In this document: positions 5,811 to 46,308 of the stretch, one piece after another
How the letters are laid out: each line of letters begins with the position of its first letter
Position numbering within the stretch: position 1 is the first letter of the stretch
Virus record (IMG/VR): IMGVR_UViG_3300018422_000001
Location: 64,001 to 110,308 of that record
From: a virus
DNA length: 46,308 bases
Direction: 5' to 3' (one strand)
Made by a program: the position numbers and the translations under genes
The notes under the pieces: generated by a model
Databases searched by the model: none
Seen by the model: only the letters and a program-made list of their open reading frames with translations
What the model was told of the DNA's origin: nothing

Positions 5811-6158
5811 ATGGCAACTCTGAACACGGCATTGTCGCTCTCGGGCGCGGATCTCACGGACGCGGATCTCTCGGGCGAGAATCTCTCGGGCGCGGACCTC
5901 TCGTTCGCTAACCTCACGGGCGCTAACCTCGTAGGCGCAAATCTCTCGGGCGCGAATCTTCGGGGCGCGTTCTTGGGTCGCGCAAACCTCTCGGGCGCAA
6001 ACCTCTCGGGCGCAAACCTCACGCGGTCAAACGCGTCATGCGCGAACTTCGCGCATGCGAATCTCACGGACGCGGATCTCACGGGCGCGGATCTCAGGGG
6101 CGCAAACCTGCAGGCCGCAACCGACAGCGGTGCCAACTTCAAGAATGCGCGAGTCTGA
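5811..6158 (+). CDS. Pentapeptide-repeat protein
   Basis: A 115-residue protein made almost wholly of A(D/N)LXX repeats: SGADL, TDADL, SGENL, SGADL, SFANL, TGANL, VGANL, SGANL, SGANL and others, about 18 units from residue 10 to 107. This is the hallmark of right-handed quadrilateral beta-helices. Some members mimic DNA and inhibit gyrase (for example MfpA and Qnr); most have no known role, and this one is short. The repeat is also visible in the DNA as degenerate 15-bp units. It follows the shared 26-bp element by 20 nt, so it probably has its own promoter. An alternative role is virion or host-interaction protein. Confidence 0.85.
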   Translation: MATLNTALSLSGADLTDADLSGENLSGADLSFANLTGANLVGANLSGANLRGAFLGRANLSGANLSGANLTRSNASCANFAHANLTDADLTGADLRGANLQAATDSGANFKNARV

Positions 6159-34994: not shown

Positions 34995-35011
34995 GTCCCG
35001 CAAGATGGGAG
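34995..35011. promoter_or_regulatory. Inverted repeat GTCCC-N7-GGGAG, candidate operator
   Basis: GTCCCGCAAGATGGGAG overlaps the ribosome-binding site of the small-terminase candidate. Close matches lie at 44811-44826 and 44753-44768 upstream of the leftward operon. Confidence 0.4.
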
Positions 35012-35022
35012 AGCCTCATGAG

Positions 35023-36009
35023 ATGCCGATAGCAGCGATCAGTCCTGAGAGGTGGGCAGCCATCATCGAGATTTACCAGCAACACGGCGGGCCGACTCTC
35101 GCGGCGGGTCGCGAGCTGGGTTGGCCGCCCGCAAGGACACGGCGAGTGTGGAACAACGGCTATCCGAGCCAAGGCTTGCCGTCGGTCAAGTCGACCATTG
35201 CCTCGGACCTCGATGCCATCGAGAAGATCAGGGCCGGCCGAGCAGACATCGAGGCGCGAGAGCGAGCGGCGCTCGAGGGCAACCGGCGCCCGAGCGATGC
35301 AGACGAAGCGGTCGAGCGCGCGGGGCACAACGTCGAGGTCGTGAAGCCGGCAGAGCAGCGGCGGATCGAAGCGATGCTGCGCAGAGAGAGCGACAGAGAG
35401 AAAGCGAGACAAGACTCTCTCAAGAGTCGAGCCGAAGAAGCGGCGTTGGTTACTCACGCACGGCGCAACTCACTCGCACTCAACGTCGTCACGGCTCAGA
35501 TACTGCGGGGTGCCCAAGCACTCGCGGGCAAGATACAAACACAGCTCGAGGCCGAAGCGCGAAGCGACAAGCCGATGACGGTCGCGGAACAGCTCTCGCT
35601 CGTGCGACAGGCTGCAGCGATCGCGCGCTTCAACAGCGAGGCGGCAATGATGGCGGTCAAGACCGAACGCATGGTGCTCGGCACGAGCGACCATTCACCC
35701 GAGCCGGCCGAGCAAGGCGGCTCGCTCGAAGAAGCCGCGCAGTGGATTGAGTCGAGCGTCAAGGCAGTGCAGCGGGCGCGACAGCGCGGCATGCTCGTGA
35801 TCGTGGCCGGCGATCAGACACCGACCGTCGAGCACGGGCGTGTGGCCCCGGGGCCACAACCCATCGAGGCCGAGGTCGACGACGATGACGAGCGCGACGA
35901 AGGCGACGAGCAAGCGAGCGGTCGGGTCGAGCTACGAGGGGAATCGCCTCGAGCGAGCATGGATGAGATTCGAAGGCGCGTGCGAAAGATGACGCTCGGC
36001 AGTGCTTGA
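35023..36009 (+). CDS. Candidate terminase small subunit
   Basis: A 328-residue protein. ATG 35023 has GGGAG 12-16 nt upstream; ATG 35005 is in frame and lies inside the inverted repeat. Residues 5-55 form a helix-turn-helix-like domain (ISPERWAAIIEIYQQHGG, LAAGRELGWPPARTRRVW), followed by long charged helices (about 60-230) and an acidic tail. Small terminases bind packaging sites with an N-terminal HTH and oligomerise through helices, so the layout and the place upstream of the large subunit fit. It is rather long. Palindrome copy 7 lies inside it. Separated from TerL by a serine recombinase gene. Confidence 0.5.
   Translation: MPIAAISPERWAAIIEIYQQHGGPTLAAGRELGWPPARTRRVWNNGYPSQGLPSVKSTIASDLDAIEKIRAGRADIEARERAALEGNRRPSDADEAVERAGHNVEVVKPAEQRRIEAMLRRESDREKARQDSLKSRAEEAALVTHARRNSLALNVVTAQILRGAQALAGKIQTQLEAEARSDKPMTVAEQLSLVRQAAAIARFNSEAAMMAVKTERMVLGTSDHSPEPAEQGGSLEEAAQWIESSVKAVQRARQRGMLVIVAGDQTPTVEHGRVAPGPQPIEAEVDDDDERDEGDEQASGRVELRGESPRASMDEIRRRVRKMTLGSA
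35841..35858. repeat. Dispersed 18-bp palindrome, copy 7 (perfect, inside a gene)
   Basis: TGTGGCCCCGGGGCCACA, coding for part of RVAPGPQP in the small-terminase candidate. It lies at the junction of the helical part and the acidic tail. Confidence 0.9.
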
Positions 36010-36037
36010 GTAACACGCACCCTCCGGTGTGTGTTAC
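36010..36037. other. Hairpin with 12-bp stem between the terminase-side gene and the recombinase
   Basis: GTAACACGCACC (36010-36021) pairs with GGTGTGTGTTAC (36026-36037) with one G-T pair and a CTCC loop. No T-tract follows. It starts directly after the TGA at 36007-36009 and ends 8 nt before ATG 36046. It might be a recombination (res-like) site, an operator of the recombinase, or an RNA structure. Confidence 0.8.
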
Positions 36038-36045
36038 ACTTGAGC

Positions 36046-36732
36046 ATGATACGTCGAAGGAAACAGGGCGGGAGCCCTCGAGTCGCGGTCGCATACCTAC
36101 GCGTGTCGACCACCGATCAACGAGTCGAACAACAGCGCGACGCGATCGAGAGATGGGCTGCGGCGAGCGGCATCACGATCGCGGCATGGTGCGTCGACAT
36201 GGGAGTCTCAGGCGCCGCACCAATCGACGAGCGACCTGGACTGCTCGAGGCACTCGCCGCTCTACGTGAGCGCAAGGCGGGCTTGCTCGTTGCTGCGAAG
36301 CGCGACCGACTCGCTCGAGACGTAGCGACCGCGGCGGCGATCGAGCGACTCACGGTCGAGGCCGGCGCTCGAGTCGTGACAAGCGACGGGCTCGACTCGA
36401 GCGACACGCCAGAGGGCGCGTTGATCCGAGCCATCATCGACGCGATGAGCCAATACGAGCGAGCGCTGATCCGAGCGCGCACGAAAGCGGCGTTGCGAGC
36501 GAAGGCGGCTCGAGGGGAACTATGCGGTGAGGCGCCGTTCGGCTTTCGCGCTCGAGACGGTTTGCTCGAGTGGCATCCGGGCGAGCAAGCCGCGCTCGAG
36601 AGCATGAAGGAACACCGGCGCTCGGGAGCAACGCAACTCGAGATCGTCGAGAGGCTCACGGCCGAAGGACACAAGCCACGGGGCACACGATGGCATGCGA
36701 CCACGATCGGGCGCCTTGTGAGAGACATCTGA
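36046..36732 (+). CDS. Serine recombinase (resolvase/invertase family)
   Basis: A 228-residue protein; ATG 36046 was chosen because GTG 36031 lies inside the hairpin. Catalytic motif AYLRVSTTDQ (Ser21), RDAIERWAAAS, GVSGAAPIDERPGL, the KRDRLARDV motif with conserved Arg, and MSQYERALIRARTKAALRAK at the start of the E helix. A short C-terminal DNA-binding part has a helix-turn-helix (ATQLEIVERLTAEGHKP, WHATTIGRLVRD). Size is that of small resolvases or invertases, not large integrases. Its place between terminase genes is unusual; a role in invertible segments, multimer resolution or as a mobile gene is possible. Confidence 0.85.
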   Translation: MIRRRKQGGSPRVAVAYLRVSTTDQRVEQQRDAIERWAAASGITIAAWCVDMGVSGAAPIDERPGLLEALAALRERKAGLLVAAKRDRLARDVATAAAIERLTVEAGARVVTSDGLDSSDTPEGALIRAIIDAMSQYERALIRARTKAALRAKAARGELCGEAPFGFRARDGLLEWHPGEQAALESMKEHRRSGATQLEIVERLTAEGHKPRGTRWHATTIGRLVRDI

Positions 36733-36744
36733 TAGCGTCGAGGC

Positions 36745-39700
36745 GTGACTGATGATCGGCAGACGCACACACCTATGCGCGCGCGCGTAGAGGGCACCCC
36801 TCTCAAAACGGGCAGGCATCGCATACGGGTGAAACGGGCGCCAGAGAACGCCCTCGAGAGCCCGCCTGCGAGCCCCGGCGATCAGCACCCCTTAGACACC
36901 CCTATGCAGAGCCCCGGCGCCGACGACAGGGGCGGCTCAGAGGGGCAGCTATCTCAGGGCACCCCTACCATAGAGGGCGACAGCGAGGCGCAGAGAGGCC
37001 CTATCACAGAGGGCGCTCACGACGAGCACGATGCACAAGGGCAGGGCATCGAGGCTAGCGCACACGTCGTGCAGAGCGATGTGCGCAGAGCATCCGACAT
37101 GGAGGGGGGTGGGGTCTTTTCTCCACTTTTCTCTCACCCCCAAATGCAGCCCTGCCAATCTCCTACGAAGGATCAAAAATTTTTGAAACCTGGGGTTGAG
37201 TCGGTTGAGGCGGTTGAGGCGGTTGAGTCGGTTGAGTCGGTTGAAGGGGTTGAGCTGCAGACCAGCGTTGACGCGGTTGAAGGGCCGAACGAGGCCGCGC
37301 CGCTGAGTGATGCCGAGGTTGCGATCTCGCTCAAGCAACGTGCGGCCGAGGCGCGCGCGCAGCTGCATGAGCTGTGCAGGCGCGATATCAACGCGTTTTG
37401 TGAGTACGTGCTGAAAGACGACGAGACGAGCGAGCCGGTCGAGCAGACCGACTTCCACGTGCGCGCGCAGCATGCGTTGAGCGAGCACAAGCAAGTCGTC
37501 GTGATGTCGCATCCGGAAAGCGGCAAGGCCCTCGCGCTCGACACCGAGATCCCGACACCCGACGGCTGGACCACGATGTATGAGCTACGTGCCGGCGATC
37601 GCGTGTTCGGCGGCGACGGCAAGCCGTGCACGGTGACGATGGCCACGCCGATTCAACTCGAGCGGCGTGTGTACGAGGTCGAGTTCGAGGACGGCTCGAT
37701 ACTGAAAGCCGATACCGATCACCGATGGCTCGTGCGCAAGCGACAGGCGTTCGGCACTCGCGTCGTGACGACGGGCGAGATGCTAGATCGACTCACCGAG
37801 ACAGACGGGCATTTCGTTTGGTCTGTTCCGTGTGCTGCGGCGGTCGAGTATCCGCGCAGACGGTTGCTGCTCGATCCCTATGTGCTCGGTGCGTGGCTTG
37901 GCAACGGTTCGACGGCCGATGCGTCGCTGCATTTCTACGAGCCCGACCGTTTCGTTTGGGATGAGAGCGTGGCGATGGTCGGGGGCAGGCAGCCTCGCAG
38001 AGACACGCGCAAGCCGCATGTTTTGCGCGGCACGTTGGGCGCGACGACGGGGCATGTCCGCAGTCGGTTGGTACGGCTCGGCGTGCTTGGGGATAAGCAC
38101 ATCCCGTTTCAGTATTTGCAGGCGTCTGTCGCGGATCGGCGGGCATTGCTTGCGGGCTTGCTCGACACCGATGGATCGGTGAGTCGAGCGTCGGGCGGTA
38201 GCTCACGGATCGAGCTGACGTTCTGCAACGAGAGGCTTGCGACAGACTCACTTGAGTTGATCCGCTCGCTTGGGTTTCGCGCGACTATGGCTGAGAGCGA
38301 CGCTGTCATTGCGGGTCGCGTTGTTGGCAGGCGGTGGCGCATCAACTTCACTGCGCGCGAGCCAGTGTTCCGTCTGCCGCGAAAGTTGGTCGGGCAACAA
38401 CTCGGCGGATCGACGCGCACGCACTGGAAGCACATCGTTGCGATTCGCGAGATCCCGTCGGTGGCGGTCAAGTGCATCGCAGTCGACAGCGCGGATCACA
38501 CGTATCTCGCCGGGCGCGCGTACACGGTGACGCACAACACGACGAACATCGCGGTCGGTCGCGTGCTTTGGGAGCTTGGGCGCAATCCGAACTTGCGCGT
38601 GATGCTGCTTTACAACGCAGAGGATTCGGCGGCGAAAACGCTCGGCGCGATCAAGCGGTACATCGAGACGAGTCGCGAGCTGCAGCAAGTATTCCCGCTG
38701 CTCAAGCGTGGTTCGATCTGGAAAGACGATCAGATTTTCATTCAGCGGAGTGCATTTGACCGCAACCCGAGCGTCGTCGCTGTCGGCTACAACAGTCGAC
38801 GTATCGGCGGCTCGCGTGTCGACTTGCTGATCATCGACGACTTGCTCGATGCGATCGTGACGGCGACTGAAGCGCAACGTCGCAAGCTGTCATCGTGGGT
38901 CAAAAATACGGTGATGACGCGGTTGTCGACGAATGCGCTCGTTGCGTTCCTGACGAATGCTTGGCATCCGCGTGATCTCGCGCATGAGCTGATCAAAGAG
39001 CGCGGTTGGCATCTCATCTGTCGGCCGATACGCGATCCCGACGGTTCGATTAGCTGGCCGACGCGTTGGACTGAGCGGCGCTTGAAGCAGAAGCGCAAAG
39101 ACTTGGGTCCGCTCGAGTACGCCAGATCATTCGAATGCAATCCGCGCGACGACGAGGCGCGGGTGTTTCGGCCCGAGCACATCGAGCAAGCCTTGAAGGC
39201 GGGCAAGGGCTACGGGTTTTTGAGCGGTGTCGATGTGATGCCCGAGAACTGTCTGATCGTGACGGGCATCGATCTCGCGGCGGGCGACGACACGAAAACG
39301 AAGGGCGCGCGTACCGTGCTCTCGAGCGTGTTCTTTCATCCGAATCAGGACAGACAGCTCGTGCGTATGCGGAGCGGTCGCTGGCGTGCACGGCAGATCC
39401 TCGATCACGTGGCGGCGGTCGGGCAGCTGTTCCCTACGAATCACTGGATCGTCGTCGAGAACAACGGTGTGCAGCGTTACATTCTGGATCTCGCGCACGA
39501 GAACGGCGTCGAGGTCGGCGTCTCGCTCGTGCCGTTTACGACCGGGCGGAACAAAGCCGACCCCCGATTTGGGATAGCGAGTCTTGCGGCAGAGTTCGAG
39601 GCGCGGCGGTGGGTCTTGCCGAGCGACTGCGATCCCGACGACCAAGAAGAAGTCGAGGGCCTCGTCTCTCAGCTCATCGACTACGTACCAGAGGCCCACA

Positions 39701-39816
39701 CGGGGGATAGACTTATGGCTACTTGGTTCGCGCGCGAGATCGGGCGGCGAATCTTCGCTCGGTTCTACGGCTCGGGCCGTTTTTACAGTGGCTCGTCGGT
39801 ACGCGCTATCGGTTAG
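36745..39816 (+). CDS. Terminase large subunit with in-frame intein
   Basis: A 1023-residue precursor from GTG 36745 (later starts possible). Residues 1-170 are low complexity and include a 9-bp-repeat stretch near 37194-37250 (VESVEAVEAVESVESVEG). The ATPase Walker A HPESGK at 256-261 is interrupted by an intein (262-598) and continues at Thr599 (TTNIAVGRV). Walker B LLIIDD (Asp698, Asp699). The RNase H-fold nuclease begins near VTGIDLAAGD (Asp843) and WIVVENNGVQ, and the C-terminus contains the TTGRNKADPRFG region. The spliced protein would be about 686 residues and would pump and cut DNA during packaging. A functional enzyme needs splicing because the P-loop is split. Confidence 0.9.
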   Translation: MTDDRQTHTPMRARVEGTPLKTGRHRIRVKRAPENALESPPASPGDQHPLDTPMQSPGADDRGGSEGQLSQGTPTIEGDSEAQRGPITEGAHDEHDAQGQGIEASAHVVQSDVRRASDMEGGGVFSPLFSHPQMQPCQSPTKDQKFLKPGVESVEAVEAVESVESVEGVELQTSVDAVEGPNEAAPLSDAEVAISLKQRAAEARAQLHELCRRDINAFCEYVLKDDETSEPVEQTDFHVRAQHALSEHKQVVVMSHPESGKALALDTEIPTPDGWTTMYELRAGDRVFGGDGKPCTVTMATPIQLERRVYEVEFEDGSILKADTDHRWLVRKRQAFGTRVVTTGEMLDRLTETDGHFVWSVPCAAAVEYPRRRLLLDPYVLGAWLGNGSTADASLHFYEPDRFVWDESVAMVGGRQPRRDTRKPHVLRGTLGATTGHVRSRLVRLGVLGDKHIPFQYLQASVADRRALLAGLLDTDGSVSRASGGSSRIELTFCNERLATDSLELIRSLGFRATMAESDAVIAGRVVGRRWRINFTAREPVFRLPRKLVGQQLGGSTRTHWKHIVAIREIPSVAVKCIAVDSADHTYLAGRAYTVTHNTTNIAVGRVLWELGRNPNLRVMLLYNAEDSAAKTLGAIKRYIETSRELQQVFPLLKRGSIWKDDQIFIQRSAFDRNPSVVAVGYNSRRIGGSRVDLLIIDDLLDAIVTATEAQRRKLSSWVKNTVMTRLSTNALVAFLTNAWHPRDLAHELIKERGWHLICRPIRDPDGSISWPTRWTERRLKQKRKDLGPLEYARSFECNPRDDEARVFRPEHIEQALKAGKGYGFLSGVDVMPENCLIVTGIDLAAGDDTKTKGARTVLSSVFFHPNQDRQLVRMRSGRWRARQILDHVAAVGQLFPTNHWIVVENNGVQRYILDLAHENGVEVGVSLVPFTTGRNKADPRFGIASLAAEFEARRWVLPSDCDPDDQEEVEGLVSQLIDYVPEAHTGDRLMATWFAREIGRRIFARFYGSGRFYSGSSVRAIG
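37194..37250. repeat. 9-bp tandem repeat inside the terminase N-terminus
   Basis: Six or seven units of GGTTGAGTC/GGTTGAGGC, encoding Val-Glu-(Ser/Ala) triplets. The DNA around 36770-37260 differs in composition from the rest of the gene (clusters of CCCC and GGGG), and an A/T run AAAAATTTTT occurs at about 37172. Confidence 0.7.
37528..38538 (+). mobile_element. Class 3 (WCT-type) intein with LAGLIDADG domain, in TerL Walker A
   Basis: A 337-residue intein, residues 262-598, between Lys261 and Thr599. It begins with Ala (ALALDTEIPTPDGW), not Cys or Ser. Block B has ADTDHRW (His326, Trp328), block F VKCIAVDS (Cys577) and block G THN|T (Thr596, Asn598). Trp-B:12, Cys-F:4 and Thr-G:5 are the marks of class 3 inteins, which use the block-F Cys as the initiating nucleophile. 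A LAGLIDADG homing endonuclease lies between: first motif GAWLGNGS (Asn387 where Asp is usual) and second LLAGLLDTDGSVS (Asp476). The Asn would be expected to weaken or abolish cutting. Confidence 0.88.
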
Positions 39817-46123: not shown

Positions 46124-46308
46124 ATGTGCGACGGGAGGCACGACTCGACCGGCGCCGTCGGTGATCCCGTTTCCCGGCGGTCGCGGCCCGGCGCCCTCGA
46201 GCCCGGCGCCCTCGAGCCCGGCGCCCTCGAGCCCGGCGCCCTCGAGCCCGGCGCCCTCGAGCCCGGCGCCCTCGAGCCCGGCGCCCTCGAGCCCGGCGCC
46301 CTCGAGCC
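46124..46308 (+). CDS. Possible partial ORF of EPGAL repeats running off the right edge
   Basis: From ATG 46124 the frame is open to the end of the window (61 codons). After about 20 residues it consists of Glu-Pro-Gly-Ala-Leu repeated, encoded by exact 15-bp units. It diverges from the RHH-like gene with element copy C between, like the arrangement at 5.67-5.81 kb. It may be real coding sequence, or merely an open frame produced by the repeat. Confidence 0.3.
   Translation, partial: MCDGRHDSTGAVGDPVSRRSRPGALEPGALEPGALEPGALEPGALEPGALEPGALEPGALE
46186..46308. repeat. 15-bp tandem repeat at the right edge
   Basis: The unit GCCCGGCGCCCTCGA is repeated exactly about 8.2 times from 46186 to the last base. 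The array reaches the window edge, so its real length is unknown and this may be why the assembly stops here. Confidence 0.95.

Follow-up and report, generated by a model that had tools for sequence, protein, structure and literature searches.

The whole stretch analysed here (the window, 46,308 nt) is the final 46 kb of a virus record of 110,308 bases and contains a terminase gene whose Walker A motif is split by a long in-frame insert. What is this insert, and can it still remove itself from the protein and spread to uninterrupted copies of the gene? We conclude that it is very probably a full-length class 3 intein whose self-removal restores the terminase, and that its nuclease, presumably once a homing enzyme, has lost a catalytic Asp; the element is predicted to splice still but no longer to home. 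The intact splicing residues, taken together with Asn126 in the nuclease, give it the look of an intein that has kept splicing and lost homing.

Terminase gene, insert and empty sites

The interrupted open reading frame (36745..39816, plus strand) encodes a precursor of 1023 aa from a putative GTG start; the relative L002 (see below) has an ATG further upstream. By homology the frame is a phage terminase large subunit. The phrog_38 terminase large subunit family matches residues 599-996 (E = 2.5e-56), a stretch that takes in ATPase and nuclease regions. Outside the insert, the closest solved structures are chains of phage terminase/DNA maturase B (4BIJ and 8DGC). The NCBIfam model NF033889 (termin_lrg_T7) scored 62.5 bits, under its cut-off of 150, and thus counts as a weak T7-type match. 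The N-extein (36745..37527, plus strand; residues 1-261) ends in SHPESGK, that is, Walker A through its Lys. The 337-aa insert (37528..38538, plus strand) occupies residues 262-598, and the 425-aa C-extein (38539..39816, plus strand) runs from the Walker A Thr (Thr599, the +1 residue; 38539-38541, plus strand) through the rest of the ATPase and the nuclease. Walker A is split between Lys261 and Thr599, as SHPESGK|ALALDT...YTVTHN|TTNIAV. Within the N-extein, a 9-base tandem repeat at 37194-37254 encodes VESVEAVE-like residues, and the N-termini of the related terminases vary there.

Three close terminase relatives were found in other virus records. In L002, whose terminase is 95% identical over the C-extein, the site is empty and reads SHPESGK|TTNIAVGR (uninterrupted sequence SHPESGKTTNIAV); in L004, with a terminase 74% identical, the site is empty as well (uninterrupted sequence SHPESGKTSGIAV). 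The third, L003 (IMGVR_UViG_3300043388_000012), also has a 74% identical terminase and carries an intein at the same point, 76% identical to that of the window. The two empty sites fix both junctions independently of any intein motif. A profile of class 3 inteins made from 58 loci, with the window and its nearest relative L003 left out, matches ORF residues 262-598 exactly (E = 3.5e-111). An earlier sequence-only reading of this DNA had placed an intein at 37528-38538, between GK and T of Walker A; the empty-site relatives and the profile agree that this placement is exact. The counter-case named in that reading, a Cys or Ser start at another junction, is excluded by the empty site of L002.

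A small serine recombinase gene (36031..36732, plus strand; Pfam Resolvase, 8.2e-33) separates the terminase from a putative gene for its small subunit (35005-36009). It is present in the window and in L002; no match to it was found in L003 or L004, where the small-subunit and terminase genes adjoin.

Class 3 residues, fold and predicted splicing

Class 3 inteins are defined by signature residues at B:12, F:4 and G:5 together with a His at B:10 (PMC3196547; PMC5222942), and Ser or Thr is typical at +1 (PMC5222942). The window intein begins with Ala1 (ORF A262; 37528..37530, plus strand) and so has no N-terminal Ser, Thr or Cys nucleophile. Block B supplies His65 at B:10 (37720..37722, plus strand) and Trp67 at B:12 (ORF W328; 37726..37728, plus strand), and block F supplies Cys316 at F:4 (ORF C577; 38473..38475, plus strand), the predicted initiating nucleophile. 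The intein ends in Thr335-His336-Asn337 at G:5-7 (ORF T596-H597-N598; 38530..38538, plus strand; T596 codon 38530-38532, N598 codon 38536-38538), and Thr599 follows at +1. Translation and alignment bear out, to the residue, the Ala start and the W328, C577 and T596 assignments proposed from the sequence alone. Given the composition of the protein, W, C and T would fall on three given columns by chance with a probability of ~1e-5, quite apart from the full-length homology. The W/C/T residues were present in 144/144 full-length classified relatives, as were the B:10 His and the terminal Asn, and all of these are invariant in the 60 rows of alignment A3.

Structural comparison points the same way. 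The best solved-structure matches by sequence are the class 3 DnaB1 inteins 6RIX, 6BS8 and 6RIY (E ~1e-22), while class 1 DnaE inteins and a gp41-1 entry reached E ~0.03 in the same comparison. The crystal structure of MchDnaB1, itself a class 3 intein, shows a protease-like triad of His65 (the base), Cys124 and Thr143 beside Trp67 (PMC7664689); the His and Trp of the window intein carry the same numbers, 65 and 67. The mycobacterial DnaB1 inteins (M. smegmatis 6BS8; M. chimaera MchDnaB1, 6RIX/6RIY) share with it A1, H65, W67, the F:4 Cys, the G:5 Thr, the HN end and the splicing fold. They differ in that the solved chains are 139-146 aa long, lack a nuclease domain and come from a DnaB helicase, whereas the window intein has 337 aa, a LAGLIDADG domain and a terminase host. 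An AlphaFold model computed from the 60-row alignment (mean pLDDT 95; a two-sequence alignment gave 35) comprises a splicing domain and a LAGLIDADG nuclease. Its top fold match, over the full length, is PI-SceI, and against class 3 6BS8 the TM-score normalised to 6BS8 is 0.85. PI-SceI and other LAGLIDADG-bearing VMA inteins have this two-domain architecture but start splicing as class 1 inteins, from Cys1.

In the tree, the window intein pairs with that of L003 within the class 3 set (SH-aLRT 99). The 127-row set that holds the window is separated from L177 with SH-aLRT 97, L177 being the single class 1 row and the deep nodes being weakly supported. In the same tree, a class 3-like intein from the Lactococcus phage 949 terminase (L179) joins this one class 1 outgroup row on a long branch. 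L179 and an intein in a 'DarB-like' gene of Vibrio phage D269 (L182) have an Ala start, the F:4 Cys and the G:5 Thr; at B:12, in the profile alignment, they have Ile and Asn, respectively, in place of the class 3 Trp, and may be a natural departure from the W/C/T rule. The terminase intein of Acidovorax phage ACF1 (L009) has the full W/C/T set yet starts with Cys, and its catalytic block C position holds Asn.

On residues, the 144-relative set, solved-structure matches and the class 3 profile, the class 3 assignment holds. An Ala start is also common to class 2 inteins (PMC4031507), and the insert might in principle be a class 1 or class 2 intein with a misplaced junction. The K|T junction is fixed by the empty sites, no Cys or Ser stands at position 1, and both the profile and the solved-structure matches point to class 3; class 2 inteins are KlbA orthologues with a G:6 Ser and a +1 Cys (PMC4031507), where the window intein has His and Thr. 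We give a class 1 or class 2 origin practically no credence.

If the chemistry follows that of the class 3 family, His65 would activate Cys316, which would attack the Lys261-Ala1 bond and form the block F branched thioester. The N-extein would then be transferred to the Thr side chain at +1, and Asn337, aided by His336, would cyclise and release the intein. Rearrangement of the ester to a Lys-Thr peptide bond would join Lys261 to Thr599, restore Walker A and yield a terminase of 686 aa, the length computed for the spliced product (1023-337). Since 337 residues part the P-loop Lys from its Thr in the precursor, it may soundly be inferred that DNA packaging would depend on splicing.

Could the insert instead be a splicing-dead pseudogene in a non-functional phage or record? 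A dead class 3 intein is documented, Arthrobacter Arth_1007 (PMC3196547), but that intein lacks the F:4 Cys and the B:10 His, and the window intein retains every catalytic splicing residue. Compared with L003, its splicing parts are the best conserved (78% identity in the N part and 83% in the C part, against 73% in the nuclease), and the terminase extein, whose P-loop an unspliced insert would destroy, is intact. We regard a dead intein as very improbable.

The homing endonuclease and its Asp-to-Asn change

The homing endonuclease domain of LAGLIDADG type covers approximately intein residues 111-290 (37858..38397, plus strand). Two Pfam matches that pass their cut-offs, LAGLIDADG_3 (9.8e-06) and Hom_end (1.6e-05), support it, as does the PI-SceI fold match. 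An active nuclease of this type should have an Asp at both catalytic positions, in block C and block E. Here the second LAGLIDADG aspartate, Asp215 in block E (LLDTDG; 38170..38172, plus strand), is intact, and the first catalytic Asp, in block C (WLGNG), is replaced by Asn126 (codon AAC; 37903..37905, plus strand). The sequence-only reading overlooked this change. The L003 intein, alike in terminase family, site and W/C/T residues, has the catalytic Asp (WLGDG, codon GAC). Among the 144 relatives the block C residue is Asp in 138, Asn in four (the window, L009, L025 and L048), Ala in one and Gly in one; the six non-Asp inteins do not cluster in the tree, the pattern that independent losses would give.

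In PI-SceI the equivalent residue, Asp-218, binds the catalytic metal, and cleavage depends critically on it (PMC1508164); in VMA inteins the loss of such residues accompanies dead nucleases (PMC8966425). Our literature search found no direct test of a LAGLIDADG Asp-to-Asn change, and the support comes from these two studies. Read together with Asn126, they indicate that the window nuclease can probably no longer break both DNA strands; it may still cut single strands, since one of its two nuclease centres is intact. Asn126 is seen in one assembled record and might be local variation or an error.

The opposing view is that the intein splices and its endonuclease still works, Asn126 being tolerated or an assembly artefact, which would make this a fully mobile class 3 intein. 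Asp215 is intact, Asn also occurs at this position in three other sampled inteins, and the remainder of the nuclease is conserved under purifying selection: the window and L003 inteins differ with dN/dS ~0.14 (NG86; dS is high), and the nuclease part with dN/dS ~0.15. Against this stand the Asp in 138/144 relatives, the critical role of Asp-218 in PI-SceI and the scatter of the non-Asp cases on the tree. We consider continued mobility unlikely, though worth keeping in mind. Under the preferred reading, of an intein that splices and no longer homes, the nuclease would formerly have copied the intein into empty terminase alleles like those of L002 and L004. The purifying selection seen across the intein as a whole between the window and L003 also speaks for this reading. 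The loss of the nuclease looks recent, because the nuclease part is still 73% identical to that of L003 with the low dN/dS above, against 78% and 83% for the splicing parts. Raised identity around the insertion site, a mark of recent gene conversion, was sought, and no clear tract was seen. The standard homing cycle runs through invasion, fixation, nuclease decay and loss. Close empty and occupied alleles, with a nuclease that seems to have died only lately, fit this cycle and leave the picture unchanged. That an intein without a working nuclease is retained as a timing or redox switch on DNA packaging, acting through cysteine-dependent splicing, seems to us highly unlikely.

Class 3 inteins in phage genes and other features of the window

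The sequence-only reading had also called class 3 inteins rare. A tblastn search with the intein matched 692 phage records, 597 of them at >=80% coverage and many annotated as terminase or helicase; the class was checked for part of these matches. Contig scans gave at least ~585 confirmed relatives in viral contigs and at least ~585 in cellular contigs; viral contigs searched with the single intein as query had given no matches, and an alignment query was used there instead. Gly-Lys precedes 117 of the 144 extracted inteins, and the site is mostly GK|T/S. Having been drawn with a class 3 query, this sample of 144, all of them W/C/T, speaks to abundance; it does not tell what fraction of all inteins is class 3. 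The terminase is the main intein carrier of mycobacteriophages, and in phage terminases the point between the invariant P-loop Lys and the Thr is a classic site, TerL1-a (Kelley et al., 2016; PMC5050341). The many class 3 relatives, together with this published survey, leave the claim of rarity unsupported and outdated.

The window intein shares with the TerL1-a allele the host function, the K|T point and a phage gene (PMC5050341), but lies in another terminase family (phrog_38, weakly T7-type) and in an uncultivated virus record. At the protein level it is ~30-46% identical to the named phage inteins in the alignment. The closest of these is the DnaB-like helicase intein of Brevibacterium phage Rousseau (OV696622.1; L005), ~43-46% identical and class 3 at GK|T; its host gene is a helicase and its block C Asp is intact, whereas the window intein has a terminase host and Asn. 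The window intein is a correct, ordinary example of a well-known and common kind, and a well-resolved addition to the class 3 inteins already known from the P-loops of phage packaging motors.

Two repeat regions were noted elsewhere in the window. The record ends within a perfect 15-base tandem repeat of 8.2 copies (46186-46308), so the assembly probably stopped there. Degenerate 15-base tandem repeats at 5838-6103 are of the kind expected for pentapeptide-repeat proteins.
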